Shown here in pieces: positions 12,160 through 57,536 of a DNA stretch of 57,536 nucleotides (position 1 is the first letter of the stretch; every line of letters starts with the position of its first letter). The notes under the pieces were generated by a model. The model ran no database searches. It was not told the origin of the DNA and saw nothing but the letters and a program-made list of their open reading frames with translations. The translations under genes were made by a program, and so were the position numbers. Origin of the DNA: a virus; IMG/VR virus record IMGVR_UViG_3300035703_000110, positions 1 through 57,536 of that record; one strand, given 5' to 3'.

Positions 12160-12773
12160 TTCAGCGCCCCGGCAACCTTGGCGTCAAGCTCTGTAGTGTG
12201 GGTCAGCCCGGTGGAGCCACCATTGACAACCTTGCGCACGCGTTTCAGGTCACCCATGATCGAGTCGGGTACGTTACCCTCCCACCATGCAATTGCCACC
12301 TTCAAAGCAATGACAGGCTGTGCAAGTAGGTCAGGACTATTCACAAGGTCAATGCCCATGATTTTGGAAAGCGCCGTGTAGTTCGCACGGCCCGTGACCA
12401 TTATCACGCCCCTGCCACGGTATTTGAAGCCGTCACCGGGCTCCACGTTGCCCATACGACCGTCATAGACCTTGTTTGCCAAGACTCGCCCGTTGCGGGC
12501 ATAAGGCAAAGCGCTTTCAAGCGTAGGGAAGCGCGTAGGCCAAACCTGCATCAGCCGTTCGGCTGAGTAGTTCAAACCTTCCTCCAGGCGTGACAGCATC
12601 GCACTTTCGTGCAAGATTTCACGTAGGAAATCGTCTAGCTCGGATTCGCCTGCGCTGAAGGTCGATTCTTTAATGGTGCTGGCAAAGTGGATAGACCACA
12701 TCGCAGCGGTGATAGGTTTTACTCCGCACTGGATTAGAACCCGATTCCATGTGGTTTCGTCACGTTTTACCAT
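12156..12773 (-). CDS. Endolysin, glycoside hydrolase family 19 type
   Basis: 205 residues from ATG 12773. The GH19/chitinase-like lysozyme signature is clear: FLREILHESAMLSRLEEGLNYSA with catalytic-region Glu residues, YARNGRVLANKVYDGRMGN, and GDGFKYRGRGVIMVTGRANY. No signal peptide is seen, so export depends on the upstream holins. It cleaves cell-wall glycan at lysis. The frame extends to 12815, but the 12773 ATG has AGAGGG upstream and a small overlap with the preceding gene. Confidence 0.9.
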   Translation of the reverse strand: MVKRDETTWNRVLIQCGVKPITAAMWSIHFASTIKESTFSAGESELDDFLREILHESAMLSRLEEGLNYSAERLMQVWPTRFPTLESALPYARNGRVLANKVYDGRMGNVEPGDGFKYRGRGVIMVTGRANYTALSKIMGIDLVNSPDLLAQPVIALKVAIAWWEGNVPDSIMGDLKRVRKVVNGGSTGLTHTTELDAKVAGALK

Positions 12774-44366: not shown

Positions 44367-44640
44367 TTTCGAGGCTGTCAATAACGTGAACTTCTACGCC
44401 TTGTTTTTGTAAATCCGCGTGTCGAAGTATTTGCTGTGACTTGGGTTCTTTGTTGGGGGCTTTGAATTCAACCAACATGATTCGTCCATTGCGTGCGCAG
44501 AAGCGATCAGGAAAACCCCGGCGCGATTGGCTCACAACTTTTTCAATGAACCAACCCCGTGTCTTTGCGTATTCTGTGGCCGGTCCTTCGATGTCGTCTA
44601 TTTCCTTGACAGTGCGTTGATAGAAAGCTTTAGTGGTCAT
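44344..44640 (-). CDS. VRR-NUC domain nuclease
   Basis: 98 residues, a complete stand-alone VRR-NUC: GFPDRFCARNGRIMLVEFK carries the PD...ExK metal-binding core, followed by the SQQILRHADLQKQGVEV helix and strand. Stand-alone phage versions act as Holliday junction-type nucleases. Overlaps the helicase by 23 nt. Confidence 0.9.
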   Translation of the reverse strand: MTTKAFYQRTVKEIDDIEGPATEYAKTRGWFIEKVVSQSRRGFPDRFCARNGRIMLVEFKAPNKEPKSQQILRHADLQKQGVEVHVIDSLENAKILFR

Positions 44641-45476
44641 AGATCGTCTTCACAATTCGTCTGCGCCGTCTTCCATGTAGGCACTGATAAAAGTTTTTGC
44701 GACTTCCGAGTTGATTGCGTTTCCATAGGCACGCAGGCGTCCCACGCGTCCGGGAGCCCCATGAGCCAACGGGAATGTGCCGGGTTCAACTGCCCTCCAC
44801 TTTCCATCTTGGCAGTAGAGCCAGTCAACATCACGCCATCTACCGTTAGTCGGGCCGGACCTTGCACCATCTTTACCATTTGAGTCAAGCTGCGCCCCGT
44901 CATTCCCGCTGTAATTCCCGTCCCGCCCCGTGTCCCGTCCGTGGCTGCAGGTGTCGGCCAACCCGCTAACTGAGCTACCACGTCCAACGTGTCCGTGCTT
45001 ATTTTGCCGTTCCGTATCCGACCACCGATGTAACCGCCCTTGTAATCCCTCGTGCTCGGAGTCGGCCACGAACCATAGTCGTTGTCGGATGTTCGGTGAG
45101 CCGACGCCCGCAGCGCAAAGATCAACAGCCCCGAAGGCGTACCTCGATGCTTCCATGTCAGCGTGTACAAGGTCGAGCCACTCAAGACCATCTTTGCTTG
45201 CAACCTGTTCGCCAAAAACCGTTGGAGGACGGCACTGTTCGATGAGGTAATGCCAGGTCGGCCAAAGATGCCGCTCGTCAGCAAATCCAGCTCCTTTGCC
45301 TGCCGCGCTGAAAGGTTGGCAAGGGCATGAACCTGTCCATACGGGGCGGTCGTCGGCCTAACCTGCTTGTCGCAAGGCTCGGCTCCAAACTCCGATTCCT
45401 GCAAAGAAATGGCATTGGGTATATTTTTTGAGGTCGTTGGGTGTGACATCTTCAATACTTCTTTCGTCAACATCAC
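44637..45476 (-). CDS. Alternate-frame protein overlapping the methyltransferase gene
   Basis: An uninterrupted 279-codon frame within the C5-methyltransferase locus. It has repeated WPTP motifs (SWPTPSTRDYKGG; GWPTPAATDGTRGG) and a GGQLNPAHSRWLMGLPDAW segment. From memory, these resemble a phage protein family with WPTP...D and LNPxxVEWLMGxP motifs found near dcm-type genes. Its TGA overlaps the ATG of VRR-NUC, the same junction style as its neighbours. Initiation site uncertain; function unknown. The same DNA encodes conserved methyltransferase residues in another frame. Confidence 0.6.
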   Translation of the reverse strand: MMLTKEVLKMSHPTTSKNIPNAISLQESEFGAEPCDKQVRPTTAPYGQVHALANLSARQAKELDLLTSGIFGRPGITSSNSAVLQRFLANRLQAKMVLSGSTLYTLTWKHRGTPSGLLIFALRASAHRTSDNDYGSWPTPSTRDYKGGYIGGRIRNGKISTDTLDVVAQLAGWPTPAATDGTRGGTGITAGMTGRSLTQMVKMVQGPARLTVDGVMLTGSTAKMESGGQLNPAHSRWLMGLPDAWDACVPMETQSTRKSQKLLSVPTWKTAQTNCEDDL

Positions 45477-50407: not shown

Positions 50408-50441
50408 TCCACAATTTTTAGAAAATTAGAACAAATGTGGA
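50408..50441. promoter_or_regulatory. Palindromic operator candidate between divergent units
   Basis: TCCACA (50408-50413) and TGTGGA (50436-50441) are inverted, 22 nt apart, within an A/T-rich intergenic region between the replication operon and the HTH gene. The core ATTCCACA also appears in all four early promoter elements. A TAAAAT at 50443-50448 could be the rightward -10. Confidence 0.5.
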
Positions 50442-50473
50442 ATAAAATTTGTGCCATGACAAACGGAGCCTCT

Positions 50474-50770
50474 ATGCAATTCCCTAAATGGGCTGACAGT
50501 TCGGAACTGTCCAAACAACAAAGAGCCAGTGGACGACTAAAGTTCATCACATCCACCCTAGCTACTGAGCTGAGTCCCCGTGCGAGTATGCGGGCCTTGG
50601 CAGAGCAAGTGGGTCTTGAGCACTCGACTATAACCAAGTCGATCAAGCAGGGCTTTTTTTCCGAAAAATCAGCTATCACCATGACGTACCATCTAAAAAC
50701 TCAGTCGCCATGGCTGACCGTGGAAATGCTGACATCCCCCATGAGCATTCGTAAGACCCGCCGACCTTGA
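50474..50770 (+). CDS. Small HTH regulator
   Basis: 98 residues from ATG 50474, with ACGGAG 6 nt upstream. RASMRALAEQVGLEHSTITK is a helix-turn-helix segment of Cro/YdaS-like size. It faces the replication operon across an operator-like palindrome, so it is a candidate lifecycle or early/replication switch. It is too short for a CI repressor with a dimerisation or cleavage domain. A start at 50435 is possible but lacks the ribosome site. Confidence 0.75.
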   Translation: MQFPKWADSSELSKQQRASGRLKFITSTLATELSPRASMRALAEQVGLEHSTITKSIKQGFFSEKSAITMTYHLKTQSPWLTVEMLTSPMSIRKTRRP

Positions 50771-50878: not shown

Positions 50879-53431
50879 ATGAGCGGTCCATTTCAAACAA
50901 AAGGTCTTGCCTATATTGAGCAAGGCTATGCAATTGTGCCCATCCCACGCGGTAGCAAGGGTCCAACGCTGGATGACTGGCAAAGCGAGTACGCAAGCAC
51001 AGCCGAACGCCACGCAGAGTTAGTCGAAGACTACGGTAATTGCGGTATCGGCATCATTGCGAAGTTCAACCCGGCAATCGACATCGACACGCTTGATGAA
51101 GCGATGTCAGAGCACATGATTGAGTGGGTGCGTGACAACATCGCGGATGCACCGCTACGCTACGGCCAAGCACCCAAGGCTTTGATGCTGTTTACCTGCG
51201 CAACACCGTTTCGCAAAATCACGTCAGCCAAGTACATCCGTCCAGGTGGGTCGAAGAAAGGTGAGCGCGTTGAAATCTTGGGTAATGGTCAACAGTTTGT
51301 GGCTGACCACATCCACCCGGATACCAACAAGCCGTACTTCTGGCAGGATGATGAGGCAAGCCCGCTGACTGTCAACGCTATCGACCTGCACATGCTCACG
51401 CTGGATGAAGCGTTGGCCGTTTGCCGTGAGTTTGAACGTGTGGCCGAGCTGCGCGGGTGGGAGAAGGTAGCTAACGCCACAAATGCTCAGGGTGATGATG
51501 AAGACACACCCACGGCTGAAGACGCTTTGGGGCAGCTCGACCTACCCGAAGAAACCGAGGAAGAAATTGCACGCGTCAAATCCGCTCTTGAGGCCATGGA
51601 CCCCGAGGTGGAAGACTACTCGTATGAAGAATGGCGCAATGTCCTCTTTGCTCTCAAGTGGACCCAATGGTCATGTGCCGAGGAACTTGCACGCGAGTGG
51701 TCCGAGCGATCCGACAAATACGATGCAAAGAATTTCCGCACCGTTTGGAAAGGCGCACAGAAACGGCAACGTGGTCGTGAGCACACTCTTGCTACCGTCT
51801 TCCACATGGCAAAGTCTCGTGGTTGGGATGCCTCGCGCAAGCCTACCGAGGAAGACAAAACCGAGCTGCTTTACACCCTGTTGTCCGAAGCGGATGCGCT
51901 GTCCCAAATCGTGCGCCCTGGTCGTGCCCTGAAAGAGCTGTTGAAAAAGCTTGCCACGGCTGACCTTGACAACTTGGATGAGGCCGAGGTGCTGAAGGCC
52001 ATCAAGGCGTCTACCAAAGACTCCATTGCCGACCTGAAAAAAGCAGTCGGTCAGTTCAAAAAAGGTGGTGACGCGATCAGCCCGACACACGCCGGGTACG
52101 CCAAATCATTTTTAGCCAAGCTCGAAGAACGCAGCGATGTGGACCCGGTAGGCGTAGAGGGCATGATTTTTCACTACGTCAAGCGCAAAGGGGTGTGGGA
52201 CGGCCTGCAAGCCCCGGACGCGGCAAGTGTGAAGGTAGCCGATGAATTCGACGGTATGGAGCACTGTGAGCGCCGTAGTGACTACACGGCCATTGCAAAC
52301 CACGCCTACTCGATAGCTGCACAAGAGAATGAAGACTTTTTCAATGACGCACCCGTGGGCTTGGCTTGCCAAGGTCGCTTCTACTCGGTCAACGCCGAGG
52401 GTGAAATTGAACGTGAGCCCATTGGACCGCAGCACCGGCAACGCGTCTTGTCGCCAGTTCGTCCCATTGCTGGTGATAAGCCTCTTTTTGAGAAATTCTT
52501 GCACTCCACATTTGAGGGTGAAGGCGAACAAGACCAAATTGACTTGCTGCAAGAGGTCATTGGGGCCACGCTGGTAGGCACGATGGCCAAATATGAAAAG
52601 GTGGTGCTGTTTAAGGGTCCAGGCCGTGCAGGTAAGGGCACGCTCATGAAAATCATCGAAGCCATGATGCCCCCTGAATGGCGTAGCGCGATCAGCCCCT
52701 TCAAATGGGATAACGAATACTACTTGGCGAGTCTTGCCGGTAAGCGCTTGAACTTGGTGGGTGAGTTGACCGATGAGATTCCAATTCCTGCAGCCAACTT
52801 CAAGACCGTCACGGGCCGGGACATTCTGCAAGGTCGTCACCCTGCGGGCCGGCCGTTCAACTTCCGCAATCAAGCTGCGCACATTTTTAACTCAAACTAC
52901 TTTGTGCATACCAAGGATCACAGTGACGCGTTTTTCAGTCGCTGGATTCTCATGGAGTTCCGCAACAGCCGGATCGGATCAAATGAAATTGAAACCGACT
53001 TGGCAAAAAGGATCATCGACGGCGAGTTGTCGCAAATTATGGCGTGGGCGCTTCAAGGGGCCAAACGGCTGCAGGCCCGTGACCGCTTCCTAGATAACAG
53101 CGTGCAGGCCCGCATGTTGGCTCAGTGGTCACGTCGCACAAGCTCACTGACAGAATTTGTGTTGGACCCTGATTTCTGCATTTTGACCCGCGATAAAAAC
53201 GATCACGTCTTGCGTTCGGATTTTTACAAGAGCTACGCGCAGTGGTGCAAAGAGTCCAATCGTCACCCCATGGGCAAAATCAAGGCGTTCGATGAGCTGG
53301 AAAGTTCGACGTTCCGCCGCCTGGATATAACCGTTGGGACGGTAATTGGTAAAAACTTTGTTGTGCGTGGGATGCGTTTGAAGACAAGCGAATGGGACCA
53401 TTTAAGCCGAGAAGACGACCAAGAATTATGA
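50879..53431 (+). CDS. Bifunctional Prim-Pol / SF3 helicase (D5/P4-like)
   Basis: 850 residues. N-terminal Prim-Pol domain (1-~180): PRGSKGPTLDDWQ, AIDIDT with the acidic DxD pair, and VADHIHPDT. Middle part: primase C-terminal/D5-type helical regions. C-terminal SF3 helicase: Walker A FKGPGRAGKGTLMKI (~585), RLNLVGELTDEIPIP as Walker B-like, and AAHIFNSNYFVHTKDHSDAFFSRW (motif C/Arg finger). It should synthesise primers and unwind DNA at the origin. Ends EDDQEL. Iterons lie just downstream. Confidence 0.92.
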   Translation: MSGPFQTKGLAYIEQGYAIVPIPRGSKGPTLDDWQSEYASTAERHAELVEDYGNCGIGIIAKFNPAIDIDTLDEAMSEHMIEWVRDNIADAPLRYGQAPKALMLFTCATPFRKITSAKYIRPGGSKKGERVEILGNGQQFVADHIHPDTNKPYFWQDDEASPLTVNAIDLHMLTLDEALAVCREFERVAELRGWEKVANATNAQGDDEDTPTAEDALGQLDLPEETEEEIARVKSALEAMDPEVEDYSYEEWRNVLFALKWTQWSCAEELAREWSERSDKYDAKNFRTVWKGAQKRQRGREHTLATVFHMAKSRGWDASRKPTEEDKTELLYTLLSEADALSQIVRPGRALKELLKKLATADLDNLDEAEVLKAIKASTKDSIADLKKAVGQFKKGGDAISPTHAGYAKSFLAKLEERSDVDPVGVEGMIFHYVKRKGVWDGLQAPDAASVKVADEFDGMEHCERRSDYTAIANHAYSIAAQENEDFFNDAPVGLACQGRFYSVNAEGEIEREPIGPQHRQRVLSPVRPIAGDKPLFEKFLHSTFEGEGEQDQIDLLQEVIGATLVGTMAKYEKVVLFKGPGRAGKGTLMKIIEAMMPPEWRSAISPFKWDNEYYLASLAGKRLNLVGELTDEIPIPAANFKTVTGRDILQGRHPAGRPFNFRNQAAHIFNSNYFVHTKDHSDAFFSRWILMEFRNSRIGSNEIETDLAKRIIDGELSQIMAWALQGAKRLQARDRFLDNSVQARMLAQWSRRTSSLTEFVLDPDFCILTRDKNDHVLRSDFYKSYAQWCKESNRHPMGKIKAFDELESSTFRRLDITVGTVIGKNFVVRGMRLKTSEWDHLSREDDQEL

Positions 53432-53437
53432 AAAATG

Positions 53438-53458
53438 ACCCGCTTCGGCGGGTTTTTT
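53438..53458 (+). terminator. Intrinsic terminator after the primase-helicase
   Basis: ACCCGC-TTCG-GCGGGT followed by TTTTTAA, beginning 7 nt after the stop. A UUCG-capped stem; the same stem sequence follows the integrase. Confidence 0.9.
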
Positions 53459-53500: not shown

Positions 53501-53890
53501 AGAGGTAAAGTTGGGGTCTGAGAGGTAAAGTTGCGCGGGGGGTGGGTCTATGGAAAATTTCAAGTTTCACAATTTCCATTTTGCATTTTTTCCCATAAGG
53601 GTATGCCCAGACAAGATTACCTCTCAGACCCCAACTTTACCTCTCAAGAGCCAAAATCGATCAAAAAAATTCATTTTTGGACACTTTTTGCCTGTTTTTG
53701 CCCATTTCTAGAGGTATTCCTAGAGGTAAAGTTGAAAAAAAATATACCCAACTCTGCCCTACATCGAGCACTTCTGGTGTCCATGGGTCCAAAACCAGAA
53801 AAATTTGCACACATAGAGGCATAGTTTGCCCGCGATGGTCGGTTTTCCCTGTTTTTCCGTCGCAACTTTACCTCTAAGAATACCTCTAGA
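53501..53890. repeat. Inverted iteron array, candidate replication origin
   Basis: AGAGGTAAAGTTG occurs at 53501, 53521 and 53722 on plus, and at 53632-53644 and 53863-53875 on minus. Variants are at 53612-53624 and 53879-53887 (minus) and 53710 (plus). They form two large inverted repeats: 53501-53528 with 53617-53644 (28/28) and 53707-53734 with 53863-53890 (27/28). Loops are A/T-rich. Iterons next to an SF3 Prim-Pol/helicase gene suggest an origin, as for P4. No convincing gene is seen in this stretch. Confidence 0.7.
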
Positions 53891-54095
53891 AACAGCCTTG
53901 GTGCCCTAAGTGGTTTGGAAAACTCGTTTTCGCCGGGGCTCTGCGCCCCCGCACACGTAAAAAGAGCCACAGAGGGACCCGACCACACTAGGCCCACCAT
54001 TAAAAAGTATCCTGAGCCCCCGCCACACCCCCGCCCATGGATCAAACAAAGCAAGGGTTACACATAAAACAATGTGCGCTTAGTCTATTAGATAG

Positions 54096-54168
54096 CCCCA
54101 CACCCCCACACCCCCACACCCCCACACCCCCACACCCCCACACCCCCACACCCCCACACCCCCACACC
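54096..54168. repeat. (CCCCACAC)n microsatellite, ~9 units
   Basis: A 73-bp run of an 8-bp C-rich unit in a noncoding gap. The minus strand is GGGG/GGGGG-TGTG repeated, able to form G-quadruplexes. The rest of 53432-54318 contains the iterons and terminators; no gene is seen. Confidence 0.95.
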
Positions 54169-54175
54169 TGGACGC

Positions 54176-54200
54176 AAAAAAGCCCGCACAGTGGCGGGCC
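54176..54200 (-). terminator. Distal terminator of leftward operon (second of two)
   Basis: Minus strand GCCCGC-CACTGT-GCGGGC followed by TTTTTT. It duplicates the hairpin at 54274 with a slightly different loop and acts as a backup terminator for the 56911-54319 genes, pointing toward the microsatellite and iterons. Confidence 0.82.
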
Positions 54201-54273: not shown

Positions 54274-54298
54274 AAAAAAGCCCGCACACTGGCGGGCC
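54274..54298 (-). terminator. Proximal terminator of leftward operon
   Basis: Minus strand GCCCGC-CAGTGT-GCGGGC with TTTTTT, about 20 nt after the stop at 54319. Strong Rho-independent signal. Confidence 0.85.
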
Positions 54299-56911: not shown

Positions 56912-57409
56912 GGTGCGGGTTCTTTCGTTGCGTGTTGTTTCGTGATGGTTTGGATTCTCTCACACGTTTTTGCAGTGCGTGCAACTTTTTTTAGTTCTTT
57001 GCTAAAAATTGCTGTTTGCTATTAAAACTGTAGCAACAAACCGCGCACTGTAGCGGGCCAACGGCCACCCATGCAAATTTTTGCTATCAATTCTATAGCG
57101 CCTACACTGAATTTCAATTCTTTTTACGGGACGCGGGCCGCTACACACCTCTACCTCTTGTTACCAGGTGATCCAGCACCAGGTTGACCCCACCCACCAG
57201 GGCACGCCACCCCCTCATTTCAATAGCCCGTTTCCTTACTTCACCACTTTGGCCCGTTTCAAATTTTTTGAGAAAAACGTACCTCGGAAAAGTTGCAAAC
57301 AAAGCAACCCGACCACAGCTTGCCAGGTCAACAATCTCAGACTAACTCTAGCCAGGTCAGAAATCCATTCAAACGTACCTTCGCTGCCAGGTCTACACAA
57401 CAACCCGGT
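56912..57409. other. Noncoding divergent control region
   Basis: About 500 bp (660 with 1-164) between leftward and rightward genes. It holds A/T-rich DNA (56970-57110), five CCAGGT boxes (57164, 57179, 57323, 57352, 57387), TTGCTAT-type repeats and, at its right end, the 29-bp tandem repeats. A leftward promoter may include TTGCAC near 56980. The single open frame at 57168-57518 is a chance one. Likely early promoter and/or a second origin. Confidence 0.55.
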
Positions 57410-57536
57410 TCCTTACTTCAGCAACTCAGCCGGGTTCCGACCGCCGCTTACTTCAGCAACTCAGCCGGGTTCCGATTTTTGGATCAAAAAGAATTTCACA
57501 AAAAGATTACACCACTGAAAAATAGTGTGATACATT
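57410..57536. repeat. Terminal direct repeat, right copy
   Basis: Identical to bases 1-127; see the left copy. Indicates a circular molecule or terminal redundancy. Confidence 0.93.

Follow-up and report, generated by a model that had tools for sequence, protein, structure and literature searches.

The viral genome IMGVR_UViG_3300035703_000110, a single virus record of 57,536 bp analysed over its whole length (the window), encodes, in this order, the portal protein, TerL, TerS, an SNF2 helicase, a VRR-NUC protein, a polymerase, an ssDNA-binding protein of the Gp2.5/Enc34 type, a DUF2800 exonuclease, an HTH protein and a primase. The order from TerL/TerS to the primase, followed by a chi-like cos, is that of chi-like Casjensviridae, and the best matches of TerL are mostly to Casjensviridae-type phages. 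Judged by its genes, the window is a complete genome of a Casjensviridae-type (chi/BcepNazgul-like) phage of bacteria. The record begins and ends (1–127 and 57410–57536) with an exact 127-bp repeat containing a tandem CTTACTTCAGCAACTCAGCCGGGTTCCGA repeat. The assembly thus probably closes into a circle, from a molecule that is circular or permuted. Rfam families and tRNAs were looked for in the window and none was found. A DNA methyltransferase gene (44637–45476) has 73–82% nucleotide identity, in short stretches, to Xanthomonas, Aeromonas and Escherichia phage genes and differs in this respect from the rest of the 45–57.5 kb region; it was probably acquired recently.

The primase, the proposed initiator (Table 1), matches the DNA primase family phrog_1156 with an E value of 8.7e-83 and is a mosaic protein: its Prim-Pol half is Casjensviridae-like (~37%), and its helicase half comes from another branch. 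Full-length relatives of the helicase half in IMG/VR are limited to two loci, L008 and L009 (45–48% identity), with distant relatives in Caulobacter phage Seuss and Xylophilus phage Lumi. A viral scan with the window primase as a single protein gave no matches. A helicase profile built from the window, L008 and L009 has a match to 7ola_A (E 8e-6), recorded only as 'DNA primase' and presumably the SaPI5 primase-helicase, and the Casjensviridae primase profile matches 6k9e/6k9c ('Primase') and 3m1m ('ORF904'). The primase C-termini of the window, L008 and L009 resemble Pox_D5 (PF03288), the D5/P4-type C-terminal family, with weak matches (E 0.003–0.02) under the gathering score. The AlphaFold model of the window helicase half, built from three sequences, has a pLDDT of 43. 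For the primase of the related phage SP-030, a model from a 29-sequence alignment predicts a C-terminal winged helix (H-E-H-H-E-E), with a pLDDT of 82.5 overall and about 86–96 over residues 71–170. A fold search with the C-terminal model (Foldseek/VIA) returned weak matches to various winged-helix proteins (best Z 4.6); P4 alpha was not among them, which excludes nothing. Of 29 loci examined, the window included, 28 have a homologue of the HTH gene ahead of the primase.

Behind an intrinsic terminator, about 69–70 bp past the primase stop codon, lies an array consisting of five exact copies of AGAGGTAAAGTTG and variants at 53612, 53710 and 53876. The heptamer AGAGGTA occurs nine times in the 57,536 bp, and eight of these copies are inside the array (53501+, 53521+, 53618-, 53638-, 53710+, 53722+, 53869- and 53881-), in the order ++ -- ++ --, the ninth being at 57152. 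With up to two mismatches, the 13-mer has eight matches in the window, six of them in the array; shuffled controls gave a mean of 0.97 matches, and none of 100 shuffles reached eight. The sites build two long inverted repeats, matching at 28/28 (53501/53617) and 27/28 (53705–53707/53863–53865) positions, and a scan of the whole window for inverted repeats with at least 25/28 matches at distances up to 260 bp gave only these two. A first-pass annotation had described eight full or variant iterons forming two long inverted repeats, which is confirmed; the 20-bp spacing that it gave for the first pair and the 70-bp distance from the primase gene (stop at 53431, first iteron at 53501) were also confirmed, the spacing in the second pair being 12 bp. 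Its description of the interiors as A/T-rich holds for the first interior and for the inter-module stretch, where the 60-mers starting at 53541–53561 and 53621–53721 are locally the least stable (z +2.0 to +2.7 relative to the genome), but not for the second interior (53741–53860), which is of ordinary stability (z 0.5–1.0).

Table 1. Features of the primase–cos region of the window.
Feature	Position	Strand	Remarks
HTH protein gene, Cro-like regulator in relatives	50435..50770	+	weak HTH matches, phrog_7401
Prim-Pol + PriCT_2 + SF3-type helicase (DUF5906), 850 aa, proposed initiator	50879..53431	+	PF09250, PF08707, PF19263; phrog_1156
Primase C-terminal part, proposed iteron-binding winged helix, approximate boundary	53156..53431	+	weak Pox_D5
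Intrinsic terminator, primase/array	53437..53454	+	
Iteron 1 AGAGGTAAAGTTG	53501..53513	+	
Iteron 2 AGAGGTAAAGTTG	53521..53533	+	
Module 1 core, 78 bp, locally easily melted	53534..53611	.	60-mer 53541–53600, z +2.36
Iteron 3, variant AGAGGTAATCTTG	53612..53624	-	
Iteron 4 AGAGGTAAAGTTG	53632..53644	-	
Inter-module spacer, A+T-rich	53645..53709	.	60-mers starting 53641–53701, z +2.2 to +2.7
Iteron 5, half site AGAGGTA (AGAGGTATTCCTA)	53710..53716	+	
Iteron 6 AGAGGTAAAGTTG	53722..53734	+	
Iteron 7 AGAGGTAAAGTTG	53863..53875	-	
Iteron 8, half site AGAGGTA (+ strand TACCTCT)	53881..53887	-	
cos 12-mer GCTCTGCGCCCC (phage chi: GCTCTGCGCACC)	53938..53949	.	one mismatch to chi overhang

To find relatives, a profile was made from seven primases, which yielded 80 IMG/VR loci. 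Arrays are present in their primase-to-cos gaps too, with a repeat dialect peculiar to each phage or group of close relatives: AGGTCCGAAT in AH2, Nazgul and L047, CATACCGAAT in L021, TCCGGGACA in L022, AACTAGGATAA in AXY1, AGGTTACAA in Chi, YSD1 and Seifer, AGGTAACAGA in SP-030 (the counterpart in YSD1 being AGGTTACAAG), AGGTAACAAA in PibeRecoleta, PIN2 and SAP012, AGTAAGAAGT in Redjac and PSTCR9, and TATTACAAGT in Soft, with further dialects beyond these. The SP-030 repeat is close to the presumed iteron of P4, GGTGAACAGA. A strong array was detected in 26 of 39 non-redundant gaps downstream of the primase, compared with 2/39 primase-gene segments and 0/39 shuffled gaps; by the same test it was absent from the other 13 gaps, some of them of Casjensviridae. 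The motif search in related phages that had been suggested as a check gave arrays at the same place; a scan of IMG/VR for the window iteron pair gave no match, so that the exact dialect was not found elsewhere. In L008, which is closest to the window in its helicase half, no clear array is seen (best log10 p -3.5); L009 has short repeated sites and a single inverted repeat of 39 nt enclosing a 72-nt loop. In both loci, genes appear by eye only to be inserted between the primase and the cos/array region (a methyltransferase-like gene at L008:10604–11521 and an HNH-like gene at L009:10636–10952). In the distantly related Caulobacter phage Seuss, a mostly direct ACCCGAGAGC array (L139:4283–4714) lies 400–800 bp past the primase; in Lumi and 9NA, which like Seuss are more distant helicase relatives, no array was found.

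The geometry of the arrays is conserved. In 29 arrays, adjacent sites 6–14 bp apart have the same orientation in 70 cases and the opposite orientation in none, while sites 86–125 bp apart have the same orientation in none and the opposite in 32; these counts include related phages and are not independent trials, but the rule holds across many repeat sequences that are unrelated. It is improbable that the origin is recognised not through double-stranded iterons but through extruded hairpins, as proposed for pRN1. The two long inverted repeats of the window have strong predicted single-strand folding (z -8.75), inverted repeats are also present in L009 and in AXY1 (32-nt arms, 55 nt apart), and in pRN1, which has the same operon plan, a 100-nt stem-loop is located just downstream (PMC4234260). 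AH2, Nazgul, Chi and SP-030, however, contain no long perfect palindrome and have unequal numbers of irregularly spaced plus and minus sites, so hairpins are not general in the family. The conserved features are a short site and an orientation rule, with the site letters following the predicted DNA-binding domain of the primase.

The cos 12-mer of the window starts ~45 bp past the end of the array and corresponds to the experimentally determined overhang of chi, 5'-GGTGCGCAGAGC (PMC4342425). It is conserved past the primase in relatives, many of whose records end at cos. Because the array abuts cos, which the first-pass annotation does not mention, terminase binding is a serious rival explanation and was tested: the repeats would then be cosB sites, from which the small terminase starts packaging at the adjacent cos. 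In favour of such a role, the arrays of the whole family are situated between primase and cos, and in lambda the repeated cosB sites likewise lie beside cosN. The other candidate ligand is the Cro-like HTH protein, for which the repeats could serve as operators in early transcription. Its gene lies ahead of that of the primase and is found with it in almost all loci, and operators are typically inverted repeats.

Natural recombinants among the relatives separate these proteins from each other. SP-030 and YSD1 share TerS (100%), the exonuclease (98%) and the HTH protein (98%), and their primases are mostly 96–100% identical to about residue 735, while the last ~135 residues are 50–74% identical. 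Their iterons differ (CAGGTAACAGA in SP-030, AGGTTACAAGA in YSD1) and occupy nearly the same positions, and in its right half the array can still be aligned (79%), with sites co-located and letters changed; the primase C-terminal domain and the repeats are the main differences between the two early regions. PIN2 and Soft, with different iterons, are 98% identical in TerS and the exonuclease and 96–97% in the primase N-terminus and helicase, compared with 62% in the C-terminus and 68% in the HTH protein. Redjac and PibeRecoleta also differ in iterons, at 98% identity of TerS, 97% of HTH and 39% of the primase C-terminus. The reciprocal case is given by YSD1 and Seifer, which have the same iteron with TerS at 81% and a primase that is almost identical (C-terminus 94%).

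It is thus very unlikely that the repeats are terminase-binding sites, and the natural recombinants largely refute this possibility: the iterons differ between phages with 98–100% identical TerS (Seifer/PIN2/Soft, SP-030/YSD1 and Redjac/PibeRecoleta), and YSD1 and Seifer have the same iteron at a TerS identity of 81%, so that the site letters do not follow TerS. The cos-proximal ~180 bp behaves oppositely to the iterons and goes with TerS, being 92–98% identical between SP-030 and YSD1 (TerS 100%) and 50–74% between YSD1 and Seifer. This segment (GTAATACAATCAACCGATTGCGGGGCTAAAG..., in L118 and L129–L131, ~740–920 bp past the primase stop) is a better candidate for cosB in chi-like phages. Operators for the HTH protein are just as unlikely, and the recombinants reject them, the iterons being different where HTH proteins are near-identical (PibeRecoleta/Redjac, 97%; SP-030/YSD1, 98%). 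Moreover, the window array is behind a terminator, no sigma-70-like promoter was found at the array, and there is no AGAGGTA site near the HTH/primase promoter, the sole copy outside the array being that at 57152.

Co-variation with the iterons is seen for the primase C-terminal domain but not for TerS or HTH. In a fixed-TerS subset of 21 pairs of enteric relatives (TerS at least 94%; the pairs are not independent), iteron similarity correlates with that of the C-terminus at rho 0.90, compared with 0.60 for the helicase, 0.52 for Prim-Pol, 0.46 for HTH and 0.42 for TerS, and all nine listed pairs with C-termini above 80% identity have an iteron similarity of at least 0.91. When all pairs are used (29 and 40 genomes), every gene correlates with the iterons, and the partial rank correlations over all 40 genomes are 0.39 for the C-terminus given TerS and 0.36 for TerS given the C-terminus. 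Such all-pair correlations are too blunt because they are confounded by phylogeny, and the separation is seen only in the fixed-TerS subset. Since the C-terminal domain adjoins the array, a single crossover can move both, and in the SP-030/YSD1 and PIN2/Soft swaps a contiguous block with both the domain and the array has moved. A function beyond mere linkage is argued for by the right half of the SP-030/YSD1 array and by Chi and BP12C, whose sequences at +36 to +586 past the primase show no detectable homology and which yet share the same dialect there, with C-termini 99% identical. As read from these alignments, it is the primase C-terminal domain, rather than TerS or HTH, with which the repeat dialect evolves or is exchanged; the helicase half of the swap-bearing relatives differs from that of the window, to which the relationship is transferred by homology of plan.

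The array is therefore considered to be the DNA replication origin of the phage, with a probability of roughly 0.8. The proposal of an origin beside the Prim-Pol helicase is supported by the array plan conserved in the family and by the iterons tracking the primase C-terminal domain in recombinants. The estimate takes into account the GC skew, a check suggested in the first-pass annotation, which shows no turn at the array and is confounded by changes in gene direction, as well as the window dialect lacking a sibling, the absence of a clear array in L008 and the gaps without a strong array. At such an origin, the predicted winged helix of the primase would bind the AGAGGTAAAGTTG iterons to either side of a core. 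The oppositely oriented clusters flank cores of ~80–130 bp, an arrangement in which SF3 helicase rings would probably be loaded face to face over the core. The rings could then melt the core and the Prim-Pol domain prime synthesis, presumably bidirectionally, with the replisome completed by the phage polymerase (45579–47609), the ssDNA-binding protein and the SNF2-like helicase.

The closest analogue is the pri-rep-ori arrangement of SaPI/PICI elements, in which ori is located directly 3' of the primase-helicase gene, two sets of iterons flank a putative melting site, and, in Gram-negative PICI, a cloned rep-ori segment replicates (PMC6092414). The C-terminal domains of SaPI Rep and SCCmec Cch2 bind the downstream repeats (PMC7581432). 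That the C-terminal domain of Rep sets iteron specificity has its parallel in the sequence comparison of the relatives (rho 0.90). The window array likewise lies immediately 3' of the primase (70 bp, with arrays in the same gap in relatives), and in module 1 its sites are ordered ++ 78 bp -- around a core that melts easily (the core of module 2 is not A+T-rich). The helicase may be homologous to SaPI Rep as well, if 7ola_A, which its profile matches, is the SaPI5 protein. The differences are that the window is a virulent-type tailed phage and not a satellite, its primase is an archaeo-eukaryotic Prim-Pol with PriCT-2, and it has two modules, an array abutting its own cos, and its own DNA polymerase. 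In 2018 the SaPI/PICI plan was reported as unknown in other bacterial replicons. SCCmec Cch2 is likewise an initiator helicase, and its C-terminal domain in isolation binds direct repeats located just 3' of the gene (PMC7581432), but the repeats are three and short, the primase (CCPol-MP) is separate and the element is a staphylococcal cassette, not a phage. P4 alpha, the model for the initiator in the first-pass annotation, is a primase-helicase that binds iterons (ori, crr) by a winged helix but has a bacterial-type (Toprim) primase (PMC4234260); the window C-terminus weakly resembles Pox_D5, and the overall plan is nearer to SaPI/PICI than to P4 alone. The pRN1 ORF56/ORF904 pair, an HTH repressor and a Prim-Pol/SF3/winged-helix protein, shares an operon, and the origin follows it closely, but this origin is a stem-loop without iterons (PMC4234260).

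No replication origin of chi-like phages was found in the literature searched, in which cos and the gene content are published (PMC4342425). If the array is the origin, it provides a located and sharply testable one for the whole family, and the origin and the packaging site are told apart within one short intergenic region. The rules of winged-helix/iteron recognition could be read from SP-030/YSD1 and PIN2/Soft, which are natural domain-swap pairs. A more speculative idea, held here with considerable doubt, is that virulent-type Casjensviridae carry a SaPI/PICI-type origin as a swappable cassette of primase winged helix and iterons beside cos, and that selection may keep the dialects mutually foreign, for example against co-infecting phages or satellites using another phage's initiator; the family would then be a ready-made set of orthogonal initiator–origin pairs.

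Beyond cos, the window contains a tandem CACACCCC-type repeat (54094–54167, ~150 bp past cos), and L008 has a different tandem repeat, GCCAGCCC, in a similar place (12374–12486). Two near-identical minus-strand terminator-like hairpins (54181–54200 and 54279–54298) share a GGCCCGCCA-TGTGCGGGCT stem.
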